From positions 170,857 to 234,856 of the forward strand of contig NZ_JAKNHJ010000001.1 in the NCBI RefSeq assembly GCF_022133705.1: a stretch of 64,000 nt of DNA, read 5' to 3'. Both the position numbers and the translations under genes were made by a program. Positions 39,509-61,534 of the stretch are shown here, piece by piece (within the stretch, counting starts at the first letter, position 1; each line of letters starts with the position of its first letter). Under the pieces are notes generated by a model. The model worked only from the letters and a program-made list of their open reading frames with translations. It searched no databases and was not told the DNA's origin. Source of the stretch: Varibaculum cambriense. Lineage in GTDB: Bacteria > Actinomycetota > Actinomycetes > Actinomycetales > Actinomycetaceae.

Positions 39509-39515
39509 CCAGATT

Positions 39516-39552
39516 GGTGGGGTGAAAACCCAATTGAGGTTTTCACCCCACC
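39516..39552 (+). terminator. Rho-independent terminator-like hairpin after the GH20-GH35 gene
   Basis: A perfect 15-bp stem (39516-39530 with 39538-39552, arm GGTGGGGTGAAAACC) encloses a 7-base loop and is followed by CTTTAT. It separates the fucosidase/hexosaminidase genes from the sialidase/GH101 pair, implying two transcription units. Confidence 0.7.
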
Positions 39553-39689
39553 GCTTTATAGCTTGAGTAAATACCTAGGGTTAGGGCTTGCTCATCTGGG
39601 TAAAAATCGAAAAGATTAAGAGAAATAGTCGCTTTCAGGGTGTGCTTGCCGGGGTCGGTAAATTCCACGGAAAGTGAGTACTTAAGACA

Positions 39690-45212: not shown

Positions 45213-45248
45213 TGATGGTTTTTTATTAAAGAAAAAAGGTAAGAAGCA

Positions 45249-48200
45249 ATGTCGCTTAAACATAAAACTATCTTGACGGTTAGTGCCGCGCTGTCTCTGA
45301 CTTTCGGGGGACTGGCTACAGCTCCGATTGCGGCCGCGGAAACGGTGTTTACCCCGATACCGCAAGCACAGATGAAAGCCGTGTGGACTGACTCAGTAGA
45401 AACTGGTGGTGAAGGAGCCAACGGTCCGCTAGAAAAAGTGCTTGATGGGGATACCAAATCCTACTGGCATACCGTTTGGTATCAAGGCACTGGCAATAAT
45501 GAAATGCCGCATAGATTCATTATTGATTTAGGTAAAGAAGTCCCAGATTTAGGGCGAGTAACTTTAACCCCGCGGCAAAGTTCCAATGGCTCGGGAAGGG
45601 CACGCGAATATCAGATTGTCAGCTACACCGATGCCAACTGCGCCGATAAATCCAAAGCAAAGGATTTAGTCCCGGCTAAAACTTTAGCGACTGGTGAGTT
45701 TGAAGAAAATCATGGGGATTTAAGCGTCAAGAATATAGATTTTGCTCCGGCGGCTGCCCGCTGTGTAGGGGTAATTTATAAGAGTGCCTGGGGCGGTCAA
45801 GCCGGAAGCAGCGAAACCGTGGGTTCTTTAGCAGAGTTCAATGCCGCTACCGTCAGCGGATATCAACCGCCAGCTCCCCCCGCAGCTGAACCAGAAGTTA
45901 AAATTCCTAACCCTGCCGATAAAATCACCATTACCGATGGCTCTTTATCAGCCGACTTACAGGCAGGATTTCCCCAAGTTATCGCGTATCACCTGCAGGG
46001 AAAAACCCTACCGGCAAATGTGGGACCTGCTCTGAAACAAGTACGCATTAATGAACAGATGCGAACAGTCTCCCTGGTTTCTGCCGCGACAAAGACCGCT
46101 GATAGTGCCACCTATAAGCTAAAAGTGGGCGGCTTAGATGTTACTTTGACAGTAAAGATTTCCCTGGCTAAAGGTAATCTTCGCTGGGAAGTAACCGCGA
46201 TTGATGATCCTAAAAATCAAGTAGATCGCCTGGCAGTGCCAGGGCTGAATTTGGTCAGCGTTGCCGGTGCTAAAGATGGAGCCGTAACAGTTGCCGGCGA
46301 TGGCACTAATCGATTGGAAAACCCCGACACTACCTGGAAAATCGCTAAGCAAAAGATTGGAATGCGGGAAGGTGGATATATGGCGGCGCTTAGCAACAGT
46401 GAACTGGCTGCCGGGCTGGTCTCGAATGCGGTCAGCGACGACTATGCCACCAGTGTTCAAGATGGACGTGGAGCAACGCGCTGGGTAGCAACTACCGCCC
46501 AAGAGGATGCGGCTACCGCGGGTAAAACTACGATGGTAGGCTCGCTTACTCCCGCGTCCTGGGTTATATGGGGGACTAATACCCGCAGCGGGAAAATCGG
46601 TAAAGATCCCAATCCGTTTGCCCAGATACGTATTGTAAGTGACGTAAACGGTGACAGCGCGGTAGACTGGCAAGACTCTGCCACCGCTACCCGCGCCCTC
46701 ATAGTGGAAAATAAACTACCTAATGGTTACGGTGATACCAAGAACCGGGTGATTACCCGGATTCCTTTCAATATTGTTTCCCAAGCTACCCATCCATTCT
46801 TGCGCACTCTAGACGATACTAAACGCATCAGTTTAGAGACCGATAACCTGGGACAACACGTGTTGCTAAAAGGGTATCAAGCAGAGGGGCATGACTCTGC
46901 CCAAGGAGACTATGCCGGACATTACAACGAGCGGGCCGGCGGTTTCACCGATTTGGTTGCTATGACTAAAGGGGCGAAGGACTATAACGCCGACTTTGGG
47001 GTTCATATCAACGACACCGAATCCTACTCGGAAGCTAAGTGTTTCAATGATGGTACCAACGCCGCTACCGTAACCGATGAATCTTGCGTTATTAAAATGC
47101 CTCCCCAGGCGGCTTGGGGCTGGATGAATCAGGCATACTATATGGATGACAATGCTGACCTAGCGCAGGGACGGGTAATTAAGCGCTTCCAGAAGTTCCG
47201 GGACGAACTAACTGCAGCTGGGATTGCTGACCGTTTCGATTGGCTCTATTTTGACGTATTTTACGGCAAAGGATGGCGTCCTCAGCGTCTGGGAGCAGAG
47301 CTGCAAAAACAAGGCTGGGAAATCGGCTCCGAATGGGCTTGGGCATTCCCGGATACTTCTTTATGGTCCCACTGGGCAAACGATGAAAAATATGGGGGAG
47401 AAAAACAAAAAGGTTTGAACTCAACCTTAATTCGTTTCGTGGAAAACAGTTGGCGAGATTCCTGGAATCCAAATCCGCTACTAGGTAATGCTAATGTCGT
47501 GGAATTTGAAGGCTGGACTGGTCACACCGATTATGGCAAGTTTATTAATAATGTGTGGCAACGCAACCTGCCTACCAAATTCCTGCAACAATCAGACATT
47601 AAAACCTACCAGCTTAGGCAAAAAGCCACTTTCACCAACGGAACCGAGGTTACCTCTAATCGTGCCAGTATCAGCGGTACTGATTTAGGTACCGACCGGG
47701 TAATAACCTATGACGGCGCTACCGTATATACCGGCGGAAAATACCTGTTGCCGTGGGGGGAAAAAGACGGAATCGGGGCAGCTAAATCTGCCGGAGACAA
47801 ACTGTACCATTACAACCCGGCTGGGGGCACTAGCACCTGGACACTGCCGGGTCGCTTTAAGAGCATAGGCTCCTTCCATTTGTATGAGCTCACTGCTACC
47901 GGAAGGGTAGATAAAGGCACCGTGAATGCAAGTGGGGGCAGTATTTCCCTCTCGGCTAAGGCAAATACCGCCTACGTCCTCTATCCGCAAAGCGCGCCTA
48001 ATCAAGCAGACCCCAACTGGGGGCAGGGTAGCGGTATTAAAGATCCCGGGTTCTTCTCCGGTACCTTAAAATCCTATGACACCAGTGGAAACGTTAGTGT
48101 TGAAACCAGTAATCGCGCTAACTTCCAGGCTCTAATAGGCGAGGGAGCGTCCTCCCTATCCCAAACCCTCACCTTACCTAAAGGCGACTATTCCATGTGG

Positions 48201-50756
48201 GCGTGGGTAGAGGTACAACCCGGTCAAGAGCGGCAAGTAGACGTGAGCATCAGCGGTAACGGCGTTAAAGCTGTCGGTAACCAGAAAACCATTGCTGGGA
48301 AAGTTGCCACCAGAATCACTAAATCTACTGCCCCTAACAAGACGGCTTCGGATGAAAAGTTCCAAACCTACTTCCAGCGGGTACGGGTAACTTTCCACAG
48401 TGAAGGCGACCCGGTTACTTTCCAGGTGGCAGCAGGGGACGGAGCCGCAAAAGTACGTGTCGATGATTTGCGAGTAGTTAAATATAGCGCTCCGGTAGAT
48501 AACGACAAAACCGAGCAAACCGTCTTCTTTGATGATTTTGAGGACGTAGACACTGGTTATTGGCCTTTCATTACCGGCGCTACTCAGGGAGGAGACGCTC
48601 GCACCCAGTTAGCAGAGCGTCACTCTCCTTATTCCGATGCGGGCTGGTGGGGAAAGAATAAGCAAGGTCAAGTTGTTGCCCATGGTAAACAAAGCGACAA
48701 TGTGCTCGCCGGGAAATGGTCACTGCTGGCGCATGAAGAAAATGCGGGGCAAATTCTGCGCACTATCCCAGCTGCAATAAAGTTTGAACCAGGGCATAAA
48801 TACCGGGTTTCTTTTGCCTATCAGCAGGCCTATGCGGGTGAGTATCAGTTTAGTTTAGGTCGGGACTGGCTGGTCGACTCACAGGTAAAGAGCTCTACGG
48901 TGCAAACTAAAGATATTCCCGAAGCGAAAGGAAAAGGAGTAGGGGGCAAAGGAACCCAAATCTTTTCCACCGAATTTGTTACCTCCACCGTAGGGGACTA
49001 CTGGATTGGTATTAATAAAGTCGGCGGGCTTCCCGGGTCTGATTTGACCCTAGATAATATCCGGGTTGAAGACCTAGGGAAAGCTGAGGTGTTGCCCGGT
49101 AATGCCGATCCGGCAATCCAAGCAGCCCAGACCGTATCTGAAGAGCAAACCTTTACAGTACAAACCAATACCGACTTCTTCGAACCGGGTAATCCTGGAA
49201 AAATAACAGACCTGAAAACTACTCTCAGCGCTCCAGATGGCTGGAAAGTCACTAAGAAGAGCGAACCTAGTGGGGATAATATCGCCCAAAATTGGGAGGT
49301 TAAGACTCCCCAAGGGGCTACAGATGGAGTATTGACCTATAAAGTCTCCTATCAGGTTGATTCCGATGGCACGACTAGGGAAGTAAGCATAGCCAGGAAA
49401 GTTAAAGTTCTCCGCTCGGTTCGCGACGGGGAAAACTACCTCTCTGATTTGCCTTGGAGTGATGAAGAGAACGGTTGGGGTCCGGTCGAAAGAGACCAAG
49501 AAAATGGAGAACAAGGACGAGGCGACGGTACCCCAATCAAGGTGGGAGGCAAAGAATATCCCAAAGGTATCGGTGCCCATGCACCAAGTAGTATTACCTT
49601 TGATTTGGCGGGTAAATGTACCCGGATGAACGCAATCGCCGGGGTGGATGACACTCAACCAAATGGTTCCGTGAAATTCATGGTTATCGGAGACGGGAAG
49701 ACCTTATTTGAATCCCCGCAGGTAGTTACCAAAACGGGAGGAGCAAATAAAATTGACCTTGATATTACCGGGGTGAAAACCCTGATTCTAAAGGTAACTG
49801 ACGGCGGTAACGGCAACGGTAATGATCACGCCGACTGGGCAGATGCCAAAGTTACCTGTAAGGTTGAGACTCCCGCAGTGCAGCCTCCCAGCTTAAAAGA
49901 CGTAGTAGCAGAGGCTAAACCGGATACGGTTGCCACTTCGGATGCGCCAACTTTCGTTGATGAGGATGGGGACACCGTTACCCCGCCGGCGGGCGTGAAA
50001 TTCAGCTTCGCGAATCTGGACAGTCAGCGACACTTGGTGCAATCGCGTGAGGCGGTAAAAGCTAGTGGTGATATCTATATTGATAGCGCCACTGGGCAAG
50101 TAACCTATCTTCCTTTGGGTTCCGAAGCCGGAAAGTCGGTGAAGATTCCGATTCAAGCCAGTTATGTTCAGGGAGATGAAACCGTAACTATCCCGGGAAC
50201 CGTAACCTTTAACGTGGCGGCAAACGAAGAAACACCCGGTAAAATCACCGAGGTGACTCCGATAGCACCGGTGGCAACCGATCCGGGTAGCTGCGAGAAG
50301 AAACCATTCGTGGAGATTCCCGTAACCAAAGGAGTCCAATACCTGCTTGACGGCAAAGAAATGGCAGCCGGTAAACACGAATACGCCTACGGAAAGCAAA
50401 TAACAGTTACCGCCAAGGTTTCTGATACCAGCAGCTATCGTTTCGCTGCGGGGGCAGTAACTAAATGGACTTTCCAGACTATGGCTCCGCAAGGATGCGA
50501 GGCTACACCGGGCAATCCGGATAAAGATAAGCCGGGTACCGGAAAGCCGGGAGGTACCGACAGACCGATAGCGCCTCCTACAGGTAACCCCGCGAAACCA
50601 GGTAATTCTGATAAAGCGGGGACAGGAAATAAGACCGCTAACTCGCGCGGTGGGAATCTAACTAGCACCGGCGCTTACGGCGGAGCATTCGCACTAGCTG
50701 CATTAATACTGATAGTTGCCGGCAGCAGGATTCGTAACCGTCGCTTAGAGTCTTAA
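45249..50756 (+). CDS. Secreted wall-anchored GH101 endo-alpha-N-acetylgalactosaminidase
   Basis: GH101 enzymes cut the Gal-beta-1,3-GalNAc disaccharide from serine/threonine of mucin-type O-glycoproteins. The 1835-aa protein has a signal peptide (about 1-30), an F5/8-type domain (40-195), and the GH101 N-terminal and barrel domains (about 210-860). The probable nucleophile is D669 (DWLYFDVFYG) and the acid/base is E695 (EIGSEWAW), placed by remembered comparison with EngBF and the pneumococcal enzyme. Galactose-binding-like domains (about 930-1280), an NPCBM-type domain (1393-1540), an Ig-like domain, the shared stalk module (1668-1745), a Gly/Pro linker and sorting signal LTSTG (1804) with helix and RIRNRRLES tail complete it. 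It is probably co-transcribed with the sialidase fusion and followed by a terminator. Confidence 0.92.
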   Translation: MSLKHKTILTVSAALSLTFGGLATAPIAAAETVFTPIPQAQMKAVWTDSVETGGEGANGPLEKVLDGDTKSYWHTVWYQGTGNNEMPHRFIIDLGKEVPDLGRVTLTPRQSSNGSGRAREYQIVSYTDANCADKSKAKDLVPAKTLATGEFEENHGDLSVKNIDFAPAAARCVGVIYKSAWGGQAGSSETVGSLAEFNAATVSGYQPPAPPAAEPEVKIPNPADKITITDGSLSADLQAGFPQVIAYHLQGKTLPANVGPALKQVRINEQMRTVSLVSAATKTADSATYKLKVGGLDVTLTVKISLAKGNLRWEVTAIDDPKNQVDRLAVPGLNLVSVAGAKDGAVTVAGDGTNRLENPDTTWKIAKQKIGMREGGYMAALSNSELAAGLVSNAVSDDYATSVQDGRGATRWVATTAQEDAATAGKTTMVGSLTPASWVIWGTNTRSGKIGKDPNPFAQIRIVSDVNGDSAVDWQDSATATRALIVENKLPNGYGDTKNRVITRIPFNIVSQATHPFLRTLDDTKRISLETDNLGQHVLLKGYQAEGHDSAQGDYAGHYNERAGGFTDLVAMTKGAKDYNADFGVHINDTESYSEAKCFNDGTNAATVTDESCVIKMPPQAAWGWMNQAYYMDDNADLAQGRVIKRFQKFRDELTAAGIADRFDWLYFDVFYGKGWRPQRLGAELQKQGWEIGSEWAWAFPDTSLWSHWANDEKYGGEKQKGLNSTLIRFVENSWRDSWNPNPLLGNANVVEFEGWTGHTDYGKFINNVWQRNLPTKFLQQSDIKTYQLRQKATFTNGTEVTSNRASISGTDLGTDRVITYDGATVYTGGKYLLPWGEKDGIGAAKSAGDKLYHYNPAGGTSTWTLPGRFKSIGSFHLYELTATGRVDKGTVNASGGSISLSAKANTAYVLYPQSAPNQADPNWGQGSGIKDPGFFSGTLKSYDTSGNVSVETSNRANFQALIGEGASSLSQTLTLPKGDYSMWAWVEVQPGQERQVDVSISGNGVKAVGNQKTIAGKVATRITKSTAPNKTASDEKFQTYFQRVRVTFHSEGDPVTFQVAAGDGAAKVRVDDLRVVKYSAPVDNDKTEQTVFFDDFEDVDTGYWPFITGATQGGDARTQLAERHSPYSDAGWWGKNKQGQVVAHGKQSDNVLAGKWSLLAHEENAGQILRTIPAAIKFEPGHKYRVSFAYQQAYAGEYQFSLGRDWLVDSQVKSSTVQTKDIPEAKGKGVGGKGTQIFSTEFVTSTVGDYWIGINKVGGLPGSDLTLDNIRVEDLGKAEVLPGNADPAIQAAQTVSEEQTFTVQTNTDFFEPGNPGKITDLKTTLSAPDGWKVTKKSEPSGDNIAQNWEVKTPQGATDGVLTYKVSYQVDSDGTTREVSIARKVKVLRSVRDGENYLSDLPWSDEENGWGPVERDQENGEQGRGDGTPIKVGGKEYPKGIGAHAPSSITFDLAGKCTRMNAIAGVDDTQPNGSVKFMVIGDGKTLFESPQVVTKTGGANKIDLDITGVKTLILKVTDGGNGNGNDHADWADAKVTCKVETPAVQPPSLKDVVAEAKPDTVATSDAPTFVDEDGDTVTPPAGVKFSFANLDSQRHLVQSREAVKASGDIYIDSATGQVTYLPLGSEAGKSVKIPIQASYVQGDETVTIPGTVTFNVAANEETPGKITEVTPIAPVATDPGSCEKKPFVEIPVTKGVQYLLDGKEMAAGKHEYAYGKQITVTAKVSDTSSYRFAAGAVTKWTFQTMAPQGCEATPGNPDKDKPGTGKPGGTDRPIAPPTGNPAKPGNSDKAGTGNKTANSRGGNLTSTGAYGGAFALAALILIVAGSRIRNRRLES

Positions 50757-50969: not shown

Positions 50970-51644
50970 CTAACCCTTGATAGCGGCATTGAACCAGCTA
51001 GTAATACTGGTGGGATGGGTAATCGCGGTGCCGACTACTACTGCCCAGGCGCCTGCCTCCATGACTTGGCGTGCCTGCTGTGGGGTGTGAACACGTCCTT
51101 CACATAGCACCGGAAACTCTGGGAATTCCGCAGTCATTTGGGCTAGTAGCTCAAAATCTGGTCCGGCAGTCTTGGGTCTATCTCCCGTATATCCCGCTAG
51201 CGTAGTAGATAAAATATCGGTTCCCGCCTCCGCTGCTTGCCGGGCGTCCTCGATACTTCCGCAATCGGCCATCACCACGATGCCCTCATCATGCAAGGCA
51301 GCAACAGTTTCACTATAAGTTAGACCATCGGGACGAGGACGGCGGGTAGCATCTAGCGCCACAATATCGGCTCCTGCCATTGAGCAGGCGCGAGCGTGAC
51401 GCAAAGTTGGAGTGATAAACACGCCCTCGTGCCCCTCTTTCCAAATCCCCAAAACCGGGATTTCAACCTGTCCTTTAATCGCAGAAATATCCGATAAGCC
51501 CTGACAGCGAATCCCAACGGCGCCACCTTGCTCAGCGGCTAAAGCTATCTGAGCCATAGTTTCACTGTGGCGCATCGGTTCGCCCACATAGGCTTGTACG
51601 CTAACAATTAATCCCCCTTTAAGGGACTGGATTATTTGATTCAT
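50970..51644 (-). CDS. nanE: N-acetylmannosamine-6-phosphate 2-epimerase NanE
   Basis: NanE converts ManNAc-6-phosphate to GlcNAc-6-phosphate, the third cytoplasmic step of sialic acid catabolism. The start at 51644 (MNQIIQSLKGGLIVSVQAY) gives 224 aa, the family length. An open frame further upstream would run inside nanK and is not used. Recognisable NanE segments are GAVGIRCQG, PVLGIWKEGHEGVFITPT, DIVALDATRRPRPDG, VMADCGSIEDARQAAEAGTD and a C-terminal WAVVVGTAITHP. It starts two bases after the nanK stop, with GGATAATC as a modest ribosome-binding site, as the last gene of nanA-nanK-nanE. Confidence 0.93.
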   Translation of the reverse strand: MNQIIQSLKGGLIVSVQAYVGEPMRHSETMAQIALAAEQGGAVGIRCQGLSDISAIKGQVEIPVLGIWKEGHEGVFITPTLRHARACSMAGADIVALDATRRPRPDGLTYSETVAALHDEGIVVMADCGSIEDARQAAEAGTDILSTTLAGYTGDRPKTAGPDFELLAQMTAEFPEFPVLCEGRVHTPQQARQVMEAGAWAVVVGTAITHPTSITSWFNAAIKG

Positions 51645-51646
51645 GA

Positions 51647-52585
51647 TTATCCTAGATTCGTATTTGCCCAAATCGCTGCACCTACTAGGGGGGCATTTCC
51701 TCCCAGAGTGCCACTGATTAGGGGAGTGTTCTTTACGGGGGTGAGAGCATCGGCTTGGAAGCCAGCTGTTACTGCTTGCCACCATGGCTTACCGGAACGG
51801 GTAACCGATCCGGAAACTATGATGGCCTCGGGATCCACCAAGTTGCAGATGCCGGCCAGGGTTTGTCCAAGCGCATATCCAGAGTCATAAATAACCTGGG
51901 TTGCCCATACTTCTCCTTTTAGAGCGCGCTCGGTGATTTCGCGTCCGCTTTGCGCCCTCGGGAGATTAGCCAGTTTATCCCGGTTATACAGTTCTACTTG
52001 ACCACTGCCGGAAGCCACGGTTTCGATATGACCTTTGGCGCCACAAGAACAGGTTAAACCGGAAGCTAACGGGTGGGGCAGATGCCCAATATGACCGGCG
52101 GCGCAGTGGGCGCCAAACTGGACATGACCATCGATAACTAGCCCGCCTCCCATGCCGGTTCCCACCGCCGCGGCCAGGATAGAGGAATAGTCTTTACCGG
52201 CTCCCAGGGTTGCTTCCCCGAGGGCGTGGGCGTGAACATCATTGAGGACGAAAACTTCCGTGTTGAAAGCTGCCTTTACCTGTTTCGCTAGTTCGGTTCC
52301 GGCCCAGCCTTTAATTAAATCGGTAGCAGAAATAACCGTTCCCCGCTTGGGGTCAATCACGCCCGCAGAGGAAATCCCGATAGCCTGAATTTGGGTTATA
52401 CCTTCGGCTTCAGCTGCGTCTTTAGCGTGACTTAACGCTTCGATAATGGCGGCTACTACTGCCGCGCTACCCTCACTGGCGGGGGTAGGACGCGAATAGT
52501 TCGCCGCTACTGTCCCTTCGGCAGTATTAACTACCGCGGATGCAATCTTCGTTCCGCCCAAATCGGCGACGAGGATATAGCTCAT
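51647..52585 (-). CDS. nanK: ROK-family N-acetylmannosamine kinase NanK
   Basis: NanK phosphorylates ManNAc to ManNAc-6-phosphate. The 312-aa ROK kinase shows the N-terminal ATP loop VADLGGTKIASAVVN, the AVGTGMGGGLVIDG segment, and the zinc-site region AAGHIGHLPH...CSCGAKGHIETVASG. In most ROK sugar kinases that zinc motif is CxCGxxGC; here the last cysteine is replaced by His, which may still bind metal. A glucokinase or other ROK kinase is possible from sequence alone, but its position between nanA and nanE makes ManNAc the best substrate. ATGA overlap with the nanA stop indicates coupling. Confidence 0.88.
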   Translation of the reverse strand: MSYILVADLGGTKIASAVVNTAEGTVAANYSRPTPASEGSAAVVAAIIEALSHAKDAAEAEGITQIQAIGISSAGVIDPKRGTVISATDLIKGWAGTELAKQVKAAFNTEVFVLNDVHAHALGEATLGAGKDYSSILAAAVGTGMGGGLVIDGHVQFGAHCAAGHIGHLPHPLASGLTCSCGAKGHIETVASGSGQVELYNRDKLANLPRAQSGREITERALKGEVWATQVIYDSGYALGQTLAGICNLVDPEAIIVSGSVTRSGKPWWQAVTAGFQADALTPVKNTPLISGTLGGNAPLVGAAIWANTNLG

Positions 52586-53499
52586 TTTAAGAGCCCTACC
52601 TGCTCAAGTACGGTGCGTACTCGTTCAACATTTTCCCCTTCCAGGGCTTTAACCGGTTCGGTAACCTGATTGGTGTTGAAAACTCCCAACAGTTGCAAGG
52701 CAGTTTTGAAGCCACCTACTCCCGCTCCGTAGCCTTGAATACCGCTTGGTACTGCGGTAATACGCATTAGGCGAGCTAAATAGTCTTGTTCTTTCCGTAC
52801 GGTTTCCCAATCCCCGTTCTGGTAGGCACGCCATTGGCGGACATAACCCTCGGGGTCTACATTTCCCAGGCCGGGGACGCATCCGTCCGCCCCGGACATA
52901 TAGGCGCCATCAACCACGACTTCGTGCCCAGTTAGCAGGGTTAAGGGGTGACCGCAATCGCGATTTTCCTGGCAGAGGAAACGGAAAGAAACATCGTCAC
53001 CGGAAGAGTCTTTCACGCCGGATAACACCCCGTCTTTACCGAGGCGAATAATCAAATCTACCGGCAGTTTAACGTGTACACATACGGGAATATCGTAAGC
53101 GAATAGGGGCAGGTCGATAGCTTCATGAATCAGGCGGAAGTGGCGTTCGATTTCCGCGAGTCCCCCTAGAGCATAGAACGGAGCGGTAGCCACAATCGCA
53201 TCTACCCCGAGTTCTTTTGCTTCTTTGGCGTGTTCAATAACCCGCATAGTTTCGGTATCAATACAACCGCCCAGTACTGGAACCCGATGACCTACGATTT
53301 CAACCGCTGTTTTCAGGACTTCCCGGCGCATTTGGTCGGTTAGGAAGGCGACTTCTGAGGAGGAGCCGAGGACGAATAAGCCGTCTACTCCGGCTGCAAT
53401 CATCCGTTCTAGGTGGCGCTTATAGGATTCTTTATCGAGTTTGCCGTCCTTGGTTAGCGGGGTAACTACCGGGGGGACAATACCGGAGAAATCAGTCAT
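52582..53499 (-). CDS. nanA: N-acetylneuraminate lyase NanA (DapA/NAL superfamily)
   Basis: NanA cleaves N-acetylneuraminate to pyruvate and N-acetylmannosamine. The 305-aa (beta/alpha)8 aldolase shows the superfamily features PPVVTPLTKDGKLD, VLGSSSEVAFLT, the active-site Tyr in FAYDIPV and the Schiff-base Lys in GVKDSSGDD. Sequence alone does not firmly separate a lyase from dihydrodipicolinate synthase or related aldolases; the linked nanK and nanE decide for NanA. AAAGGAAAAG precedes the ATG. Its promoter and an overlapping palindrome lie about 150 bases upstream. Confidence 0.88.
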   Translation of the reverse strand: MTDFSGIVPPVVTPLTKDGKLDKESYKRHLERMIAAGVDGLFVLGSSSEVAFLTDQMRREVLKTAVEIVGHRVPVLGGCIDTETMRVIEHAKEAKELGVDAIVATAPFYALGGLAEIERHFRLIHEAIDLPLFAYDIPVCVHVKLPVDLIIRLGKDGVLSGVKDSSGDDVSFRFLCQENRDCGHPLTLLTGHEVVVDGAYMSGADGCVPGLGNVDPEGYVRQWRAYQNGDWETVRKEQDYLARLMRITAVPSGIQGYGAGVGGFKTALQLLGVFNTNQVTEPVKALEGENVERVRTVLEQVGLLK

Positions 53500-53639: not shown

Positions 53640-53650
53640 TTGTCTGACAC
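53640..53650. promoter_or_regulatory. GntR/FadR-type operator at the nanA start point
   Basis: TTGTCTGACAC contains TGTC-T-GACA, fitting the TGT-NNN-ACA pattern of FadR-subfamily GntR operators. It lies four bases beyond the -10 of the nanA promoter on the minus strand, where binding would block transcription. The same half-site TTGTCTGA occurs near 53770 and 55661. Confidence 0.65.
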
Positions 53651-53654
53651 TTCG

Positions 53655-53683
53655 AGCATAATCTATTGATTTAGTCGGTGCAA
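53655..53683 (-). promoter_or_regulatory. nanA-nanK-nanE promoter
   Basis: On the minus strand TTGCAC (53683-53678) and TATGCT (53660-53655) are separated by exactly 17 bases. The predicted start falls within the palindrome at 53640-53650. Confidence 0.6.
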
Positions 53684-53769
53684 GGTTTTTTTGGAAGTTT
53701 CTTAAAAACCTAGTTTATTTAGTATTTGGCTGTTTATTGAGGTAGATAAGTTGATTAAGGGAGCGAGAA

Positions 53770-53780
53770 TTGTCTGACAA
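53770..53780. promoter_or_regulatory. Second GntR/FadR-type operator (perfect palindrome)
   Basis: TTGTCTGACAA is a perfect inverted repeat, TTGTC-T-GACAA. It lies about 120 bases from the nanA operator and 190 bases upstream of the hydrolase gene, and could serve either direction or allow looping between sites. Confidence 0.6.
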
Positions 53781-53969
53781 CTTTTTGGGGTAGCGGGAAG
53801 GAATCGAAGTCAGGGTTTTAGCGATTCGTGCTCTCGCCCGCAATGAGTACGTCCTCGATATACGCCGTAGGTTCGCGGAAAAATCCGGGTAACTTGAGAG
53901 GTGAAAGTACCTCCCTGAGGTATCATAAATGCCAAGTTAAGCAGTGGCAGGCGTTAAAAGGGAGCAAAA

Positions 53970-54776
53970 ATGCTTAGTTATCTGGTAGCGGGAAATCCTG
54001 CTCGTCCTCTAATTATTTTGGTTCATGGAGTAGAAGATTGCGCGATTTCCTGGGCGGATTATATTGACCATTTAAAGTCCCGTTACCTGGTGGTTTCAAT
54101 AGACCACAAAGGACACGGTTTTTCGCCTCGATTTACCGACCAAGAGCTAGAAGATCCTTTCGAGGCTTCATTTTCTGCCTTCGTGGACGCGGTGCAATTT
54201 ATCGAAAAAACCTTTGGTAAAAAAGCTATTTTCGTGGGGCATTCCATGGGGGGCGCCCTCGTTACGAAACTGGCTGCGCGCTACCCTGAACTGGTAGCAG
54301 GGGCGGTAGTAGAAGATCCGGCGTGGCTGTCTAAAACCTACCGTCAAAACTATGTCACTAATATTCCGACTGCTCTTAGCCAACTTGAGTCCTGGCAAGA
54401 CCCAATGGTGGCCTATAGCTGGGGGAGAAAGCGGCGTCCCTGGTGGCCGGGGGACACCATGATCGGTTGGGTTTTTGGAAAGCTCCGGGTGGATTCAGGG
54501 CTGATAGGAACCGGGGTGGTTAGTTTTAAGGAAAACTGGCAAGACTTGATGCAAGAAATTACGGTTCCCCTGGTGGTGGTTTCTTCCGATCAGGAATCAG
54601 ATATTGTGGGGAAGTCCGGGTTAGCGCAAACCGATGCTTTAGCTAATCGGAATGTGGAAACAGTTTTTATTCCCGGCTGTGAACATACGCTAAGGCGTAA
54701 CAAACCGCAAGAATTCAACCGGTTAATAGATCCCTATCTGATGAAATGGGCAACTGCGGAAGAAAACCGTAGTTAG
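53970..54776 (+). CDS. Cytoplasmic alpha/beta hydrolase (paralogue of the 61953 gene)
   Basis: The 268-aa protein has the alpha/beta-hydrolase fold: oxyanion region LVHGVEDCA, DHKGHGFSPRF, nucleophile elbow GHSMGGAL (Ser about residue 93), and the catalytic His in PGCEHTLRR near the end. No signal peptide or membrane segment is present, so it is cytoplasmic. It shares unusual segments with the product of 61953-62765 (GHG-SPRF, EDPAWL/EEPAWL, LPG-x-x-H-x-x-RR), so the two are paralogues. Its substrate is unknown. Placement beside nanA with a shared operator region suggests removal of an ester, for example O-acetyl groups, from imported sialic acids (inference). It starts after AAAGGGAG and converges on the regulator gene. 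Confidence 0.8.
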   Translation: MLSYLVAGNPARPLIILVHGVEDCAISWADYIDHLKSRYLVVSIDHKGHGFSPRFTDQELEDPFEASFSAFVDAVQFIEKTFGKKAIFVGHSMGGALVTKLAARYPELVAGAVVEDPAWLSKTYRQNYVTNIPTALSQLESWQDPMVAYSWGRKRRPWWPGDTMIGWVFGKLRVDSGLIGTGVVSFKENWQDLMQEITVPLVVVSSDQESDIVGKSGLAQTDALANRNVETVFIPGCEHTLRRNKPQEFNRLIDPYLMKWATAEENRS

Positions 54777-54829
54777 GGGAGGGGCTGGTAGCCGAGACTC
54801 GCCCTATTGATAGGAAGTGGAAATCTGGC

Positions 54830-55600
54830 TTAAGCGGGTAGAGCCTCAATGGATTCTATTAGAGGCGAATAGTGGTCTTGTACCGCGGCCATGTATCCCA
54901 GTGCATCTCCCGCTTCAGCGGCTTTAAGCATCGCCCCATGCGCCTTGGCAGTTGCTACCATGTTTTCTTTCCCGGCAGCCGGCAAGACAGGAAGTACCGA
55001 CATGTGCACCAGCCAGAGGGCGTTCATTAGTTCTTCGAGTAAGTTATTGTTCAACTCTGACACTAGACCAGTGTGAAATTCTATGTCCTCTACTAAGAAT
55101 TCCTGACCGTTACGAGCTTTTTCCACCATAGTGTCAACTAGCTGATGTAAGTGAGTTAGCTGTTTTCCAGCCACTTTCATTACTATTTCACGGGCTAACC
55201 CGATATCTAGGGTACGTCGAACTTGTACGACTTCGCTTAAGGAAGTCAGGCTGGTAGATTTTAGCGAAGAGCGCAACACCATCATTTGGGCAAAAGGACG
55301 TAAAGACATTTCTCCCACGTAGGTTCCGCGTCCTTGGTGAACGGTAACAATATCTAAAGCCTGTAATTGTCTTAAGGCTTCGCGCACGGAAGAGCGGGAA
55401 ACCCCTAAGCGTTCACACAGTTCATTCTCCGTAGGTAGCGGGTCTCCGGGTTGTAGACGCTCTTGTAATATGAAACTTTCTATCGCAGCCAGGGCACCTT
55501 TAGAGCGGGAGCTAGGAATCTCTAAGCCCTTTTTGCTATGTAGTAAGCGCCGGTAATCGTCCACTGTGGAGACTGATTCGGGGGTAGCTGTCTTTTTCAT
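54830..55600 (-). CDS. FadR-subfamily GntR transcriptional regulator, probable sialic acid repressor (NanR-like)
   Basis: The 256-aa protein has an N-terminal winged helix-turn-helix (about residues 40-105: LQPGDPLPTENELCERLGVSRSSVREALRQL, then the wing HQGRGTYVG). It also has a C-terminal all-helical FCD ligand domain with acidic/His positions typical of metal-assisted acid binding (DIGLAREIVMKV, EFHTGLV). It lies between nanA and a peptide-family importer. TGTC-centred palindromes occur at its own start point and at that of nanA, so autorepression and control of the nan genes are likely. Corynebacterial NanR is a FadR-type regulator with the same task. The effector (sialic acid or an intermediate) is inferred. 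Confidence 0.85.
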   Translation of the reverse strand: MKKTATPESVSTVDDYRRLLHSKKGLEIPSSRSKGALAAIESFILQERLQPGDPLPTENELCERLGVSRSSVREALRQLQALDIVTVHQGRGTYVGEMSLRPFAQMMVLRSSLKSTSLTSLSEVVQVRRTLDIGLAREIVMKVAGKQLTHLHQLVDTMVEKARNGQEFLVEDIEFHTGLVSELNNNLLEELMNALWLVHMSVLPVLPAAGKENMVATAKAHGAMLKAAEAGDALGYMAAVQDHYSPLIESIEALPA

Positions 55601-55660
55601 GTGATTCCTCTATTGCAATTGCGCTCGTCTAGTAGATTACCATTCCCCATTGAACGGTAG

Positions 55661-55673
55661 TTGTCTGATGACA
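55661..55673. promoter_or_regulatory. GntR/FadR-type operator at the regulator's own promoter
   Basis: TTGTCTGATGACA contains the palindrome TGTC-TGAT-GACA. It lies three bases beyond the -10 of the leftward regulator promoter, the same geometry as at nanA. It is about 120 bases upstream of the importer -35, so direct control of the importer from this site is less certain. Confidence 0.6.
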
Positions 55674-55676
55674 GCT

Positions 55677-55705
55677 ATGCTACAGGGCATAGTAGAGTGA
55701 TGCAA
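55677..55705 (-). promoter_or_regulatory. Promoter of the GntR-family regulator gene
   Basis: On the minus strand TTGCAT (55705-55700) and TAGCAT (55682-55677) are separated by 17 bases. It is closely similar in sequence and layout to the nanA promoter. Confidence 0.55.
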
Positions 55706-55791: not shown

Positions 55792-55821
55792 TTGACAGAA
55801 CTTATTCTTTGTTACTACGCT
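55792..55821 (+). promoter_or_regulatory. Promoter of the ABC importer operon
   Basis: A consensus TTGACA (55792-55797) is followed after 18 bases by TACGCT (55816-55821), giving a predicted leader of about 60 bases. The leader contains an imperfect hairpin (CATTTGTATG at 55824-55833 with CATAC...CAAATG at 55852-55864). Confidence 0.6.
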
Positions 55822-55890: not shown

Positions 55891-57486
55891 ATGCGTTCTA
55901 TTAAGCGTTGGGCAAAGGTATCGGCTGTACTTGCCGCTGCTGCACTTGCTCTTTCGGCTTGTGGAGGAGGATCCGCTGATACGAAAGCAGGAGGATCTAC
56001 CGGAACCAAAGCAACTGGCGAACTAAAAGTTTTTGCCGCTTATGACACCACTAACTGGAATCCCTCGAACACGTCTTCAGCTCTGGCGGTGGGCGCTAAC
56101 CTACAGGTAGTTGAAGGGTTGTACGAGTTTGATTTCTCAAAGTTCAAGGCTCACAAGGCACTGGCTGCTGAAGATGAACCTACCAAGGTAAATGACACCA
56201 CCTATGAAGTTAAACTGCGTGATGGAGCCAAGTTTTCTAGTGGAGATGCAGTTAGCTCTAAAGATGTAGTCAGTTCCTATAAACGAATCGTTGATGGGGA
56301 CAAGGACTCAACTGGTGCAGTACAACCCAGTTCCTATGCTGCATTCCTGACTGCTATTTCCGGTATCGAAGCTAAAGATGACAGCACAGTTACCATCAAA
56401 CTGACCCACGCTATTGACAACTTGAAAGAGCGCTTAGCGTTAATTAAAGTCGTTCCCAGCAAAGCCACCTTTGATGAATTGACCAAGATGCCAGTGGGAT
56501 CTGGACCTTACAAATACGACACTATTACTGACACCACTCAGGATTTGTCGGTAAATGAGCACTACAACGGGCCTAACCCGGCAACCGTAGGCAAAATTCA
56601 CTACGACAATTCCCGGGACGCAACCGCTCGTTTAACGGCCGCGGTAGCCGGACAAACTGACGTAGTTGAAGCGCTAGATCCAGCCGGTATTGAAAAGGTT
56701 AAGGCTGCAGGATGGGAAGTTAAAGATGCTACCGCCTACGGTATCGCGATGATGACCTTTAACACCACCAAAGCTCCTTTCAAAGACAAGCGGGTTCGTC
56801 AGGCACTACTGACCGCTATTGATACCCAAACTATGATTAAGACTGCTCTTAATGGCGCGGGTAAAGAGCCTACTTCTTTCCTGCCTGATTACAACGATCA
56901 ATACAAGAAAGCTGCTACCCAGTTCTCCTTTGATGTAGACAAGGCAAAGAAGCTACTGGCGGATGCAGGAGTGGCTGCCGGTACCGAAATTAGCGTGCTC
57001 ACCACTACCGATACTTGGATTGCTGCTATGGGGCCGCAAATCAAGCAGAATTTTGAGGCTCTAGGTCTAAAAGTTAATCTCAACAATGTTGCTTCCGCGG
57101 ATTTATGGAACAACAACGTTGCCCAAGGCAATTTTGATGTAGTGGTTGCCCCCGGTGATGCCTCCGTTTACGGCGCCGATCCGGGAGTGCTGATTAAGGG
57201 CTGGTTCTACTCCGAACTGTGGATGAAAGACCGTTTCCGTCTAACCGAATCTGACCCTGCGGGAGCTAAAGCTCTGGTTGATTTAATGGATAAAGCCGAT
57301 AAAGCTACCGGAGATGAGGCTAAAGCCAAATGGGGTGAAGTGCAAGATATGATTGCTGATCAGGCAGCCCTCTATCCGCTAGCCTTCCACACTCTCTACA
57401 CCGCCTACAATCCCGCTAAAGTATCTGACCTCACTCCGATTGGCGTGACCGGTCTGCAACTAATCGGCACCAAGGTAAGCAAGTAG
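55891..57486 (+). CDS. Solute-binding lipoprotein of a peptide-family ABC importer (candidate sialic acid receptor)
   Basis: The ATG at 55891 has AAAGGAGAGG upstream and yields a typical lipoprotein signal: MRSIKRWAKVSAVLAAAALALSAC with lipobox LSAC, Cys about residue 24. An upstream in-frame extension from 55792 would include the promoter and is rejected. The 531-aa product is a family 5 solute-binding protein (DppA/OppA-like), with the repeated-type blocks YEVKLRDGAKFSSGDAVSSKDVVSSYKR and VRQALLTAIDTQTM. By analogy with the corynebacterial SiaE receptor, which is of the same family, and by its nan context, sialic acid is a reasonable ligand; peptides or released disaccharides are alternatives. 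Confidence 0.85.
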   Translation: MRSIKRWAKVSAVLAAAALALSACGGGSADTKAGGSTGTKATGELKVFAAYDTTNWNPSNTSSALAVGANLQVVEGLYEFDFSKFKAHKALAAEDEPTKVNDTTYEVKLRDGAKFSSGDAVSSKDVVSSYKRIVDGDKDSTGAVQPSSYAAFLTAISGIEAKDDSTVTIKLTHAIDNLKERLALIKVVPSKATFDELTKMPVGSGPYKYDTITDTTQDLSVNEHYNGPNPATVGKIHYDNSRDATARLTAAVAGQTDVVEALDPAGIEKVKAAGWEVKDATAYGIAMMTFNTTKAPFKDKRVRQALLTAIDTQTMIKTALNGAGKEPTSFLPDYNDQYKKAATQFSFDVDKAKKLLADAGVAAGTEISVLTTTDTWIAAMGPQIKQNFEALGLKVNLNNVASADLWNNNVAQGNFDVVVAPGDASVYGADPGVLIKGWFYSELWMKDRFRLTESDPAGAKALVDLMDKADKATGDEAKAKWGEVQDMIADQAALYPLAFHTLYTAYNPAKVSDLTPIGVTGLQLIGTKVSK

Positions 57487-57524
57487 TTATCAAATGATTA
57501 CTTGCTGCTAAGTGAGGCTCCAAC

Positions 57525-57566
57525 TAATGGGCGGGGCGGAAGCTCCAGTTTCCGCCCCGCCCATTA
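57525..57566 (+). terminator. 17-bp perfect hairpin between receptor and permease genes
   Basis: The arms at 57525-57541 and 57550-57566 are perfectly complementary around an 8-base loop (GC-rich core GGGCGGGGCGG). No T-run follows. Such structures often protect the receptor mRNA and reduce read-through, giving more binding protein than permease. Confidence 0.65.
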
Positions 57567-57606
57567 ACTTTAGAGGAAGCTAATACTTGGCTAAAAGGAG
57601 AGATTA

Positions 57607-58599
57607 GTGAACAACTTATTGAGACTCATAGGCAGGCGACTTATCGCTTTGCCAATCATGGCAATCGGGGTCACCATGTTGGTGTTTTTCGTAATGGAGC
57701 TATCGCCTATTGACCCCGCCTGGACAGCGCTCGGCGATAACGCGGCCGATCCTGCGCAAGTAAAAGCCTTTAATATCGCCCATGGATATGTAACCGATGA
57801 TGGTAGCGAGACTGGGAAACCGATTCCCGCAGTGGTTCGGTACTTCAATTATCTAGTTGGTTTATGTCAAGGTGACTTCGGTATTTATGGGGTAGGGACT
57901 GGTCATAAAGTAGTAGATTTAATTGCCCCTGCCCTTCCAGTAACCCTGCAGCTCACTTTCTTTGGGCTATTCATTGCGGTACTTATTTCTTTCCCCTTAG
58001 GGGTAATCGCGGCGCTTTATCGTGACCGCTGGCCAGATCAGGTTTTTCGTGTCCTATCAGTGGTATTTATCGGTACCCCCAGCTTCTGGTTAGCTGCCTT
58101 GTTAGTGCTACTAGGTCTTGCCCTCGGTCATGGTGAACTGGTCGCCGGAGGGTTACCAGGAATCACTGAAGACTTTGGCGGCTGGGTAACCCGAATGATA
58201 CTTCCCGCCCTAGCCCTGGCGACTCCGGTTATTGGGCAAATGACTAGGGTGGTTCGTACTTCAGTAGTAGAAGAACTTGACCGCGATTACGTTCGCACCG
58301 CTTTGGGGGCGGGCATTCCTCGCCCGGTAGTAATCGCCCGTAACGTGCTACGTAACGCGCTGATTACTCCAGTAACCGTCCTCGGTTTACGAGTCGGTTA
58401 CCTTATGGGAGGGGCAGTTGTTATCGAAATTATTTTCGGTCTGCAAGGAATGGGTAAAGTCCTGGTGCAAGGAGTGCAACAAAGCCAAGTAGAAGTTGTT
58501 CAAGCTGCTGCTTTGGTGGTTGCCTTAGCTTTCATTGTGGTTAATATCGTCGTCGATATGCTCTACCTGTTAATAAACCCCCGAATTAGGTCTGTGTGA
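57607..58599 (+). CDS. ABC importer permease (DppB family)
   Basis: The 330-aa inner-membrane permease has an N-terminal helix (RLIALPIMAIGVTMLVFFVM), the signature SPIDPAW, about six transmembrane segments, and the ABC-coupling EAA-type loop around DYVRTALGAGIPRPVVIARNVLRNALIT. Its family is DppB/OppB. The GTG start has AAAAGGAGAG upstream. The stop overlaps the next gene by four bases. Confidence 0.9.
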   Translation: MNNLLRLIGRRLIALPIMAIGVTMLVFFVMELSPIDPAWTALGDNAADPAQVKAFNIAHGYVTDDGSETGKPIPAVVRYFNYLVGLCQGDFGIYGVGTGHKVVDLIAPALPVTLQLTFFGLFIAVLISFPLGVIAALYRDRWPDQVFRVLSVVFIGTPSFWLAALLVLLGLALGHGELVAGGLPGITEDFGGWVTRMILPALALATPVIGQMTRVVRTSVVEELDRDYVRTALGAGIPRPVVIARNVLRNALITPVTVLGLRVGYLMGGAVVIEIIFGLQGMGKVLVQGVQQSQVEVVQAAALVVALAFIVVNIVVDMLYLLINPRIRSV

Positions 58600-60671
58600 T
58601 AATCATGATGAGTCAAACCAAGAAAATTGTTTCCGCAGTTGAAAGCGGTAAAAAAGTACGCTTTAATCGTTGGAAAAATATGAGTATCGGTGCGCGCATT
58701 TCCGTGTGTGTGCTGATTAGCGTGGTACTAATTTCCTTTTTTGCCAAATTTATTACCCCATACTCTCCTGATAGGGTATTCACCGATGCCATCTTGGCTC
58801 ATCCCAGCGGATCGCACCTATTTGGAACCGATTATGCCGGTCGTGATGTGTTATCGCGTTTGCTGATGGGCGGGCGTTTCTCGATAGTCATCGGATTGTG
58901 TTCCGCATTTATTGCCCTGTTCTTTGGGGCAATTATCGGCTCGATTGCGGCAGTGGTACGTCGCAGCCTTTCAGAAGTGATTATGAGAATAATGGACATC
59001 ATTATGGCGGTTCCTGGCATTGCTATGGCAGCAGTAATGGTGTTGGTATTCTCCGGTATCTTCAAAGATGGTAATCGAGTCGGGCTAGTTGCCGTGATTA
59101 TCGTGGCTATCTCATTCGTATATACCCCGCAGTTGGCGCGGATTGTACGGGCAAATGTGATGGCAGCCTACGGTGAAGACTACGTTAGGGCAGTTATTGT
59201 TTCGGGTGCGCGTGCCCCCTGGATTCTGGTAAAACACGTAATCCGTAACACGGCTGCTCCAGTACTGGTGTTTGCCACCGTCCTGGTAGCAGATGCGATT
59301 ATTCTGGAAGCCTCCCTTACCTTTATTGGCTCCGGTCTCCAATCAACAATGGTTCCTACCTGGGGTAACGTACTTTCTGATGCGTCTGCCAACGGGTCTA
59401 TTATTTATGGAGCCTGGTGGACCGCCCTATTCCCCGGTCTGCTAATCATGATCACGGTACTGTGTCTAAACATCTTGTCCGAGGGGATCACCGATGCCAT
59501 GGTGGCTGCGCCGGCTTCTGCTCCCGCAAAGGTTGAACAAAATACCGCCGATCGGGAAGCCGATGCTCTGCTATTGGATCCTCGCCGCGCCTATGTGACT
59601 CAAAAAGACTCCTTACAGGAACGTCTAGACTCCCTCAAACTGGTGGAAAGCCAACGCGATGATCGCTTTGATGATTCACCGTTTGCCGGTCAAAACCCAT
59701 TACTGGAAGTAAAGAACCTATCCATCAAATTCCCGCGTCACGGTGATGTAAACGTAGTGGATCGGGTAAGCTTCACAGTTCGCCCCGGAGAAACCATGGG
59801 GCTGGTTGGGGAATCAGGCTGCGGTAAATCAATCACTGCGCTAACCATTATGGGCTTGATCGATCCGCGTGCCCAGATTGAAGGAGAAATTCTCTACCAA
59901 GGTCAAGACCTCTTGAAAATGTCTCCTAAGCAAAGGCAAGGGCTATTAGGAAACGAAATGGCAATGATTTACCAGGACGCGCTCAGCTCCCTGAATCCTG
60001 CCATGTTGATTAAGGCTCAGATGAAGCAACTAACCTCCAGAGGAGGAACTCGCAGCGCCGAGGAACTTCTAGAACTGGTGGGCTTAGATCCCAAACGAAC
60101 CTTGGAATCCTACCCGCATGAGCTTTCCGGTGGGCAGCGGCAGCGCGTCCTCATCGCCATGGCTCTCACCCGCGATCCGAAACTGGTGATTGCCGATGAG
60201 CCGACTACCGCTCTGGATGTTACCGTCCAAAAGCAAGTTATCGCTCTGCTAAACGAGTTACGGGAAAAACTCGGATTCGCCATGGTGTTCGTTAGCCACG
60301 ACCTTGCCCTAGTTGCCGAAGTGGCTCACAAGATTACCGTAATGTACGCCGGACAAGTAGTAGAACAGTCGCCGACCAGCGAGCTACTGGAACACCCTGT
60401 TCACGAGTACACTCGCGGTTTGTTAGGGGCGGTACTGTCAATCGAATCTGGTTCCGGACGTTTGCATCAGGTTCCCGGCACAGTACCTAGTCCTAAAGAT
60501 TTCCCAGTTGGTGACCGTTTCGCTCCGCGTTCGTCCCATCCAGATTATGGAGCCGATATTCCACTCGAGCTAGAACTGGTGGGTCCAGAACACGTGTATG
60601 CGGCACTACCTGATAAAGAGGGCGTGTATAAGCGTGCTCCCCGATATAGCGCCAGCGGAAAGGAGGAATAA
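58596..60671 (+). CDS. ABC importer permease-ATPase fusion (DppC-DppD)
   Basis: The 691-aa protein joins a DppC-type permease (about residues 1-310; RDVLSRLLMGGRFS, EDYVRAVIVSGARAPWILVKHVIRN) to a complete DppD-type ATPase (about 365-690). The ATPase has Walker A GESGCGKS, signature LSGGQRQR, Walker B LVIADEPTTALD and the C-terminal oligopeptide-transport extension. Such permease-ATPase fusions occur in other actinobacterial peptide-family importers. The GTG at 58596 overlaps the previous stop as GTGA; ATG codons at 58605 and 58608 are alternatives. Confidence 0.9.
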   Translation: MIIMMSQTKKIVSAVESGKKVRFNRWKNMSIGARISVCVLISVVLISFFAKFITPYSPDRVFTDAILAHPSGSHLFGTDYAGRDVLSRLLMGGRFSIVIGLCSAFIALFFGAIIGSIAAVVRRSLSEVIMRIMDIIMAVPGIAMAAVMVLVFSGIFKDGNRVGLVAVIIVAISFVYTPQLARIVRANVMAAYGEDYVRAVIVSGARAPWILVKHVIRNTAAPVLVFATVLVADAIILEASLTFIGSGLQSTMVPTWGNVLSDASANGSIIYGAWWTALFPGLLIMITVLCLNILSEGITDAMVAAPASAPAKVEQNTADREADALLLDPRRAYVTQKDSLQERLDSLKLVESQRDDRFDDSPFAGQNPLLEVKNLSIKFPRHGDVNVVDRVSFTVRPGETMGLVGESGCGKSITALTIMGLIDPRAQIEGEILYQGQDLLKMSPKQRQGLLGNEMAMIYQDALSSLNPAMLIKAQMKQLTSRGGTRSAEELLELVGLDPKRTLESYPHELSGGQRQRVLIAMALTRDPKLVIADEPTTALDVTVQKQVIALLNELREKLGFAMVFVSHDLALVAEVAHKITVMYAGQVVEQSPTSELLEHPVHEYTRGLLGAVLSIESGSGRLHQVPGTVPSPKDFPVGDRFAPRSSHPDYGADIPLELELVGPEHVYAALPDKEGVYKRAPRYSASGKEE

Positions 60672-60673
60672 TC

Positions 60674-61534
60674 ATGGTAGACGATAAAATGGTTTTGCCT
60701 AACAGCGAACCGGTAGACCCGGATGTTCCCATTATTGAACTGCGTAAGGTTGAAGTGATTTTCAAAGCGCGTACCGGTTCAATCTTCAAACCAAACCATG
60801 TGCATGCAGTACGAGGCGTGGATATGAAGATTATGCCGGGAAAAGTGTTGGGAATTGTGGGGGAATCGGGTTGCGGTAAATCTACCACCGCCAACGTGAT
60901 GTGCGGTCTGCAAGTAGCCAGTAAAGGCCAAGTGCTATTTATGGGCAAGGACGTGACCAAACGTTCCGCTAAGGATCGCCGGCTTATCGGACAGGTAGTA
61001 TCGGTAGTTTTCCAAGACCCAGCGACTGCCTTAAATCCGCGCATGACAGTGCAAGACCAACTGGCAGATCCCTTACGGGTTCATAACATCGGTAATGAGT
61101 CTTCGCGTGAAAAAAGGGTAAGAGAGCTGCTAGGGCTGGTAGGGCTACCATTATCTGCTCTCGGGGCGCTGCCTGGTCAGCTTTCCGGTGGGCAGAGGCA
61201 GCGGGTGGCGATTGCTCGTGCCCTATCCCTTAATCCGAAAGCGATTATTGCTGATGAACCTACCTCTGCTTTGGATGTGTCGGTGCGTGCTCAGATTTTG
61301 AACCTACTATCTGATTTACGTGAGGAACTCGGTTTGGCGATGGTGTTTATTTCGCATGATATTCAAACGGTGCGTTACATCTCTGACTATATTGCGGTGA
61401 TGAACGAAGGAAAGGTCGTGGAGCAAGGAACTGCGGAGCAAATCCTGAATTCGCCCAAGGATCCCTACACCGAGAAACTGCTGGGAGCTGCTCCCTCGCT
61501 ATTGCATCCTGCTTGTTTAAACGAATATGCCTAG
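60674..61534 (+). CDS. ABC importer ATPase (DppF family)
   Basis: The 286-aa ATPase completes the importer. It has Walker A GESGCGKSTTA, the Q-loop region VFQDPATALNPRMTVQDQL, signature LSGGQRQRVAIARAL, Walker B AIIADEPTSALDVS and the switch His in FISHDIQTVRYIS. GGAGGAATAATC precedes the ATG, and the gap from the fusion gene is two bases. A strong terminator follows, so the operon is receptor-permease-fusion-ATPase. Confidence 0.92.
   Translation: MVDDKMVLPNSEPVDPDVPIIELRKVEVIFKARTGSIFKPNHVHAVRGVDMKIMPGKVLGIVGESGCGKSTTANVMCGLQVASKGQVLFMGKDVTKRSAKDRRLIGQVVSVVFQDPATALNPRMTVQDQLADPLRVHNIGNESSREKRVRELLGLVGLPLSALGALPGQLSGGQRQRVAIARALSLNPKAIIADEPTSALDVSVRAQILNLLSDLREELGLAMVFISHDIQTVRYISDYIAVMNEGKVVEQGTAEQILNSPKDPYTEKLLGAAPSLLHPACLNEYA

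Follow-up and report, generated by a model that had tools for sequence, protein, structure and literature searches.

The protein encoded at 54830-55600 on the minus strand of a 64,000-nucleotide stretch of Varibaculum cambriense DNA (contig NZ_JAKNHJ010000001.1; the whole stretch is called the window) is quite probably, judging from sequence comparison, a NanR-type repressor of the GntR/FCD family that controls the sialic acid genes nanA-nanK-nanE and probably, more weakly, itself. Three observations carry this reading: an 11-base-pair (bp) palindrome, TTGTCNGACAA, stands before nanA; it recurs beside the regulator gene in relatives; and the metal-ligand residues of the protein are conserved. 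The initial annotation had described three matching palindromes with one promoter-operator geometry. All three are present where it placed them, but they are not three matching sites, their spacings being N1, N1 and N4; the two at 53640 and 53770 look like real operators of one type, and the one at 55661 is a weak match. The system is an ordinary, fairly well supported sialic acid repressor regulon, for which the earlier description gave too much weight to one site and used a spacing rule that is wrong. The sites, the candidate promoters and the genes concerned are as follows.

53640..53650, no strand assigned: operator 1, TTGTCTGACAC, TGTC-N1-GACA, one mismatch to TTGTCNGACAA, 4 bp past the nanA -10.
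53770..53780, no strand assigned: operator 2, TTGTCTGACAA, TGTC-N1-GACA, exact to TTGTCNGACAA, 130 bp from operator 1.
55661..55674, no strand assigned: operator 3, weak, TTGTCTGATGACAG, TGTC-N4-GACA, at the regulator promoter, one intact half-site.
53655..53683, minus strand: candidate nanA promoter TTGCAC-17-TATGCT (TTGCAC 53683-53678, TATGCT 53660-53655).
55677..55705, minus strand: candidate regulator promoter TTGCAT-17-TAGCAT (TTGCAT 55705-55700, TAGCAT 55682-55677).
55792..55821, plus strand: candidate transporter promoter TTGACA-18-TACGCT, without an operator, read from the sequence.
50970..51644, minus strand: nanE, N-acetylmannosamine-6-phosphate 2-epimerase (Pfam NanE, E 1.1e-57; NCBIfam PRK01130 above cut-off).
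51647..52585, minus strand: nanK-like ROK sugar kinase (Pfam ROK, E 9e-56), with a 4-bp overlap with nanA.
52582..53499, minus strand: nanA-like lyase of the DHDPS family, first gene of the operon (Pfam DHDPS, E 1.5e-46).
53970..54776, plus strand: alpha/beta hydrolase (Pfam Abhydrolase_1).
54830..55600, minus strand: GntR/FCD regulator, NanR-like (Pfam GntR 3.2e-21, FCD 8.5e-16).

It was found that the loose spacing rule does not separate these sites from background. In the window, TGTC-N0..6-GACA gives 4 matches compared with 3.17 expected, and therefore the loose pattern is not significant; a scan of the genome (2.23 Mb) for TTGTC-N1..4-GACA, the check that had been proposed, gave 27 strand matches (14 + 13) against 29 (17 + 12) for the backwards control, which is no enrichment. 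The signal is carried by the tight form TTGTCNGACAA. In the two upstream regions (760 bp) there are 2 sites with at most one mismatch, where base shuffling gives a mean of 0.025 and none of 2000 shuffles reaches 2; with at most two mismatches there are 3 sites against 0.39 in shuffles, and 0.6% of shuffles reach 3. Since the 11-mer was derived from the window's own sites and was afterwards sought in relatives, this shuffle test is partly circular, and the relatives are the real test.

Two sets of relatives were used. The named set consists of the best 80 of 568 confirmed regulator loci, mostly Actinomycetaceae, and these loci are related rather than independent events. (Loci, genomes and contigs outside the window are cited by our L, G and C handles.) Within 450 nucleotides (nt) upstream of the regulator, 18 of the 80 hold an exact copy; allowing one mismatch raises the count to 28, and allowing two raises it to 48. 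In a second set of 18 further relative loci, 4 of whose contigs coincide with contigs of the named set, 11 carry a copy upstream of the regulator when one mismatch is allowed. The contrast with chance is plain in the 47 named loci that have a divergent transporter match within 900 nt of the regulator: 15 exact copies and 24 with at most one mismatch, compared with base-shuffle means of 0.01 and 0.20, and with 0 and 0 for the backwards motif. The claim of a FadR/FCD-type regulator with operators at nanA appears to be borne out by this recurrence.

The 24 sites also share their surroundings. TTGC is conserved at -10 to -7, and TA...T at +13, +14 and +18 (20 to 22 of 24 per column in both cases), and therefore the operator is likely to fill the 17-bp spacer of a transporter promoter in these relatives. 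This differs from the geometry reported for the window, where even the identical distance is only approximate: the promoters are nearly as had been described, but operator 1 lies 4 bp past its -10, while on the regulator strand the 14-mer begins 2 bp and the 11-mer register 5 bp after the -10. A sigma-70 consensus scan lists none of the nanA, regulator and transporter candidate promoters; nevertheless, the candidate nanA and regulator promoters have the relatives' TTGC-N19-TA-N3-T outline, which supports the earlier promoter calls.

Copies before sialidase-type genes are also found. One with a single mismatch lies 75 bp before a sialidase-domain gene in L162, and two exact copies 50 bp apart (L070:12138-12198) lie at the 5' end of a 1796-amino-acid frame that contains two sialidase-type (BNR_2) stretches; of the two copies, the second is inside the longest frame yet before the likely start. 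We inspected 20 places in relatives among the matches listed, which is not a regulon census: 11 are inside frames and 9 between, and of the latter only the L162 site precedes a sialic acid gene, while that in L154 precedes a ROK regulator.

The protein itself has an N-terminal GntR winged helix and a C-terminal FCD domain, as in the FCD (FadR) subfamily. Residues D172, H176, H221 and H243 are invariant in 19 of 19 aligned sequences and would correspond to the Asp and three His that we take to be the FCD metal ligands, and the recognition helix SRS[SN]VREA is conserved in the 19 sequences. The gene is linked to nanA/K/E and to an ATP-binding cassette (ABC) transporter, whose function is given by context, both in the window and in relatives. 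In most FCD members the operator is a palindrome whose GT and AC boxes are separated by 3 nt (PMC4494728), an arrangement found in operators 1 and 2 and lacking in operator 3.

Comparison with known systems places the regulator by role rather than by subfamily. E. coli NanR is likewise a GntR-type repressor of nan genes, and its model is the best-scoring NCBIfam model for our protein. Its operator consists of (GGTATA)3 repeats (PMC8012715), and no exact GGTATA was found in the two upstream regions; the model score of 87.8 bits is below the curated NanR cut-off of 260 bits, which counts against the assignment. With the FCD features present and these two E. coli features failing, the regulator is therefore regarded as NanR-type by role, outside the E. 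coli NanR subfamily. That fadR-type genes occur in nearly all Actinomycetia nan clusters (226 of 234; PMC8754123) is already reported, as is the Bifidobacterium NanR (B. breve UCC2003, GntR type), an N-acetylneuraminate-responsive repressor of the nan cluster (PMC4746261). The 12 Bifidobacterium homologs in our named set are 47-51% identical to the regulator, and 11 have nan or transporter matches nearby, but many Bifidobacterium loci differ in having another operator variant. The C. glutamicum NanR (cg2936), the loss of which derepresses nagAB according to unpublished work cited in PMC4974736, also belongs to the GntR family and is likened to our protein by family and role only. LldR of C. 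glutamicum, whose solved FCD structure 2di3 matches the regulator (E 1e-13), is a lactate regulator (PMC4494728) in another gene context. AlkR of Pseudomonas aeruginosa, an FCD protein, was footprinted on ATTGTCAGACAAT (PMC12042122), which holds the same 11-mer, but AlkR regulates an alkane monooxygenase in an unrelated gene context. We recognised no printed Actinomycetaceae operator in the literature searched, which did not include supplements or the B. breve and C. glutamicum NanR papers.

The generic FCD character of the palindrome suggests that another GntR/FCD regulator of the genome might bind these sites. There are 4 regulator matches in this genome, and the second listed (C34:40095) is 23% identical. 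We consider this highly unlikely since the site recurs beside this particular regulator gene in relatives.

Several further observations weigh against the NanR-type reading. In 32 of the 80 named loci the best upstream match has at least 3 mismatches, and Bifidobacterium and Gardnerella loci show another variant, e.g. TTGTCAGATGTCTGATAA or TGATGTCTGATGTCA, possibly with overlapping half-sites (L217, L219, L229, L230, L232, L235 and L236 near 9540-9606; L256, L259 and L262 near 19930). In the window, operator 3 is weak and the transporter is without its usual operator: no 11-mer site with at most two mismatches was found by window scan at the candidate transporter promoter, and operator 3, which might also serve the transporter, lies about 118 bp from the candidate -35. 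The genome as a whole holds 34 places with at most one mismatch, 4 exact and 30 with one; 30 of the 34 are inside reading frames, and therefore the motif alone is no predictor of targets. The 4 sialidase-domain genes of the genome were rejected as regulon members, none of the 34 places lying closer to them than 10 kb; a search of their loci, not all of which reach far upstream, likewise found no site with one mismatch or fewer. Finally, 19 of the 24 relatives' sites come immediately after an ATG that is in frame with the regulator, so that they could be codons for MLSDK or MMSDK (L193, L195, L197-L200, L202-L204, L206-L208, L210, L211, L213, L215, L218, L220 and L245). The overlap applies also in L063, L065 and L192, where the divergent neighbour is nanK or nanA. 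Because of it, the 6 nan loci that lack a close homolog of the regulator are also a weak control; 2 of these have a site, both about 2 kilobases (kb) or more from the matched nan genes.

If coding were the cause, the conserved 11-mer would mainly represent the regulator residues M-L-S-D-K, and its likeness to the window palindromes would be coincidental. The downstream pattern MLSDKxxQ is shared as well, and the shared Gln codon after M-L-S-D-K coincides with the TTGC columns, which share the coding caveat; the TA...T columns lie before the ATG and are kept too. Codon usage, however, points the other way. Among 23 N-termini of this kind, all 17 Leu residues are encoded by TTG (which makes up 7% of the Leu codons of these loci), all 22 Ser residues by TCA or TCT (17% usage) and all 23 Asp residues by GAC (66% usage). 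The loci are related, so these counts are not independent, and translation starts generally favour AT-rich codons; this accounts for part of the bias, but not for GAC nor for TTG over TTA. The codon choice favours a DNA signal, and the operator therefore probably overlaps the regulator's own start codon in many relatives, with rare codons keeping the palindrome. Coding cannot explain operators 1 and 2, because they lie before nanA and the window regulator begins with MKKTATPES, nor can it explain the 5 of 24 sites without a preceding in-frame ATG, the L162 site or the first L070 copy, which stand before sialidase-type genes. As a cause of conservation in relatives coding is only partly excluded, and it lowers our confidence in the NanR-type reading slightly; but as the main cause, with a merely coincidental likeness to the window palindromes, we find it very unlikely.

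Within the NanR-type reading, autoregulation in this genome is less well supported. The annotation had the regulator repressing itself, and this is weaker than stated: in the N1 register, operator 3 has 2 mismatches in 10, besides its N4 spacing. It is possible, though we lean the other way, that only nanA is controlled in the window and that the 55661 palindrome is decayed or a chance match, as matches at the level of two mismatches arise readily: the window holds 21 of them, and the shuffle mean for the two upstream regions is 0.39. On the other hand, 55661 is correctly placed past its promoter and is unchanged in the sister species, and a strong copy is retained near the start of the regulator in relatives; one of them, L060, shows a site with one half degraded in much the same way. 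In the sister genome G005 all three sites are unchanged, operator 2 even though its flanks differ, with 89% identity in the nanA-hydrolase region and 96% in the regulator-transporter region; because overall identity is so high, this conservation is weak support.

Operator 2 may also be read in two ways. As the only exact site of the three, about 190 bp before the hydrolase start, it might be the operator of the divergent hydrolase gene instead of an auxiliary nanA operator, and hydrolase homologs occur near the regulator in 6 loci, although two of these (L056 and L184) are the same sister genome. The consensus scan, however, put no plus-strand promoter at 53770, and none of 4 loci of other genomes has a site with at most one mismatch before the hydrolase (L191 ends before the upstream part). 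We consider this alternative possible but less likely than not, and the hydrolase is a regulon member only by position.

The mechanism that we propose is as follows. A regulator dimer would bind the 11-bp palindrome, and at nanA-nanK-nanE the repressor would cover the start region just past the -10 through operator 1. The stronger-looking operator 2, upstream, may reinforce repression or serve the hydrolase gene, and self-transcription would probably be dampened through the weaker 55661 site. The inducer would be an acidic pathway sugar, with sialic acid as the likeliest candidate, which would bind the FCD domain and so release the DNA. Operator positions past a -10 or in a promoter spacer are typical of repression. 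We infer repression here, with operators 1 and 3 just past their -10 elements and the relatives' site in the spacer of a likely transporter promoter; activation is very unlikely, even if the title of a reference presents S. pneumoniae NanR as an activator.

Of the 34 genomic places, only four are outside coding when the longest frames are considered: 53640, 53770, C16:8060 (outside the homologous part of its frame) and C3:51105. The non-coding share is no higher than usual; two in one 470-bp region is the notable part. With A or T as the centre, the three exact genome copies are operator 2, C16:8060 and one inside a frame. The exact 11-mers at C65:98663 and C72:93369 are inside reading frames and were taken as chance. 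The one-mismatch place at C3:51105 is intergenic, with a minus-strand frame on either side, and stands about 67 bp ahead of a 322-amino-acid membrane-protein-like frame. The copy on C16 precedes the following gene.

L104:7119-8012 (genome G000, contig C16): DUF4862 gene, adjoining an AbiEii-type gene; this stretch is not the same in the sister genome.

This gene (PF16154, E 3.6e-98), which lies outside the window, is the one lead of wider interest in an otherwise ordinary regulon, and it is probably controlled by the same regulator. The exact TTGTCAGACAA at C16:8060-8070 ends 47 bp before its ATG at 8012, and a TATAGT hexamer follows the operator by 4 bp. A longer frame with a start further upstream exists, but the shorter start is the one at which homologs begin. 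Between operator and start codon there is a short inverted repeat, GGAAGC...GCTTCC (L104:8031-8048). The 2.8 kb adjoining the gene is 93% identical in G005, from which it follows that contig C16 belongs to the genus; no DUF4862 gene was found in G005.

We put at even chances the proposal that DUF4862, as marked by this regulator, is an unrecognised enzyme of sialic acid catabolism in Actinobacteria, weakly resembling a TIM barrel of the xylose-isomerase type, which may perform an isomerisation, epimerisation or ring-opening, possibly on unusual or modified sialic acids. In 59 genomes a regulator homolog (E 1e-20 or better) is found in 13 of 14 with DUF4862 and in 10 of 45 without (Fisher p 3e-6, uncorrected for kinship); a DUF4862 match is present in the E. 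coli control as well. Thirteen of the 80 named loci have DUF4862 near the regulator gene, 9 of them with nanA, nanK or nanE, 1 with the transporter only and 3 with neither. It stands directly before nanK in 6 Bifidobacterium loci, directly after nanE in Microbacterium and directly after the regulator in Arcanobacterium, Streptomyces and Kocuria. Weak matches to the xylose-isomerase-like barrel family (best E 0.02) were obtained with five of 10 homologs; a PDB search with the DUF4862 alignment gave no match up to E 1, NCBIfam none, and a full-text literature search no paper with the term. When 14 DUF4862 loci, linked and unlinked, were scanned upstream, the exact site was found in its own genome only and a one-mismatch site in L140; sites before only 2 of 14 loci weaken the enzyme reading. 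A further one-mismatch site precedes DUF4862 in L215.

The genes nanA, nanK and nanE are near-contiguous on the minus strand from 53499 to 50970. The NCBIfam nanK models are below their cut-offs for the kinase, as are the dapA and nanA models for the lyase, so both are named by cluster context, and relatives' nan clusters contain homologs of the lyase. A relative's nanK homolog was matched as two separate pieces (L064:337-1455), and L268 (G002 contig C1) comes from a genome of the same genus in which homologs of nanK and nanE occur but none close to the regulator, its nan genes being probably controlled by other means. The regulator gene sits between the hydrolase gene and the divergent peptide-type ABC transporter (55891-61534), which is the usual divergent neighbour of the regulator in relatives and a sialic acid uptake candidate whose function is given by context. 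Neither this transporter nor the DUF4862 gene was taken up in the initial annotation. In this lineage nanA-nanK-nanE is an operon separate from that of the transporter; it carries two operators, while none is visible at the transporter promoter.

55891..57486, plus strand: solute-binding protein of the peptide/nickel-type ABC transporter (Pfam SBP_bac_5), with homologs in relatives' nan clusters.
57607-58599, 58596-60671 and 60674-61534, plus strand: transporter permease, permease-ATPase fusion and second ATPase, reading frames with homologs in relatives.

Two alpha/beta hydrolases, at 53970-54776 and 61953-62765, flank the regulator-transporter block, and homologs stand near the regulator in some relatives; that they are sialic acid esterases is a guess. 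A very large glycosidase block occupies 32648-50756, with a GH20/GH35 fusion, a sialidase/GH20 fusion and a GH101 protein with NPCBM and F5/8 domains. The public record FQLW01000006.1 (L184), labelled Tissierella sp., matches the sister genome G005, and its label looks wrong. V. cambriense is reported to encode sialic acid use (PMC4177395), and nan clusters are reported in 33% of Varibaculum species (PMC8754123).

The analysis provides a testable operator consensus for the FadR-type regulator reported in nearly all Actinomycetia nan clusters, those of members of the human flora included. It also singles out DUF4862, a domain of unknown function, as one that may supply a further step, or a helper, when host sialic acids are used.

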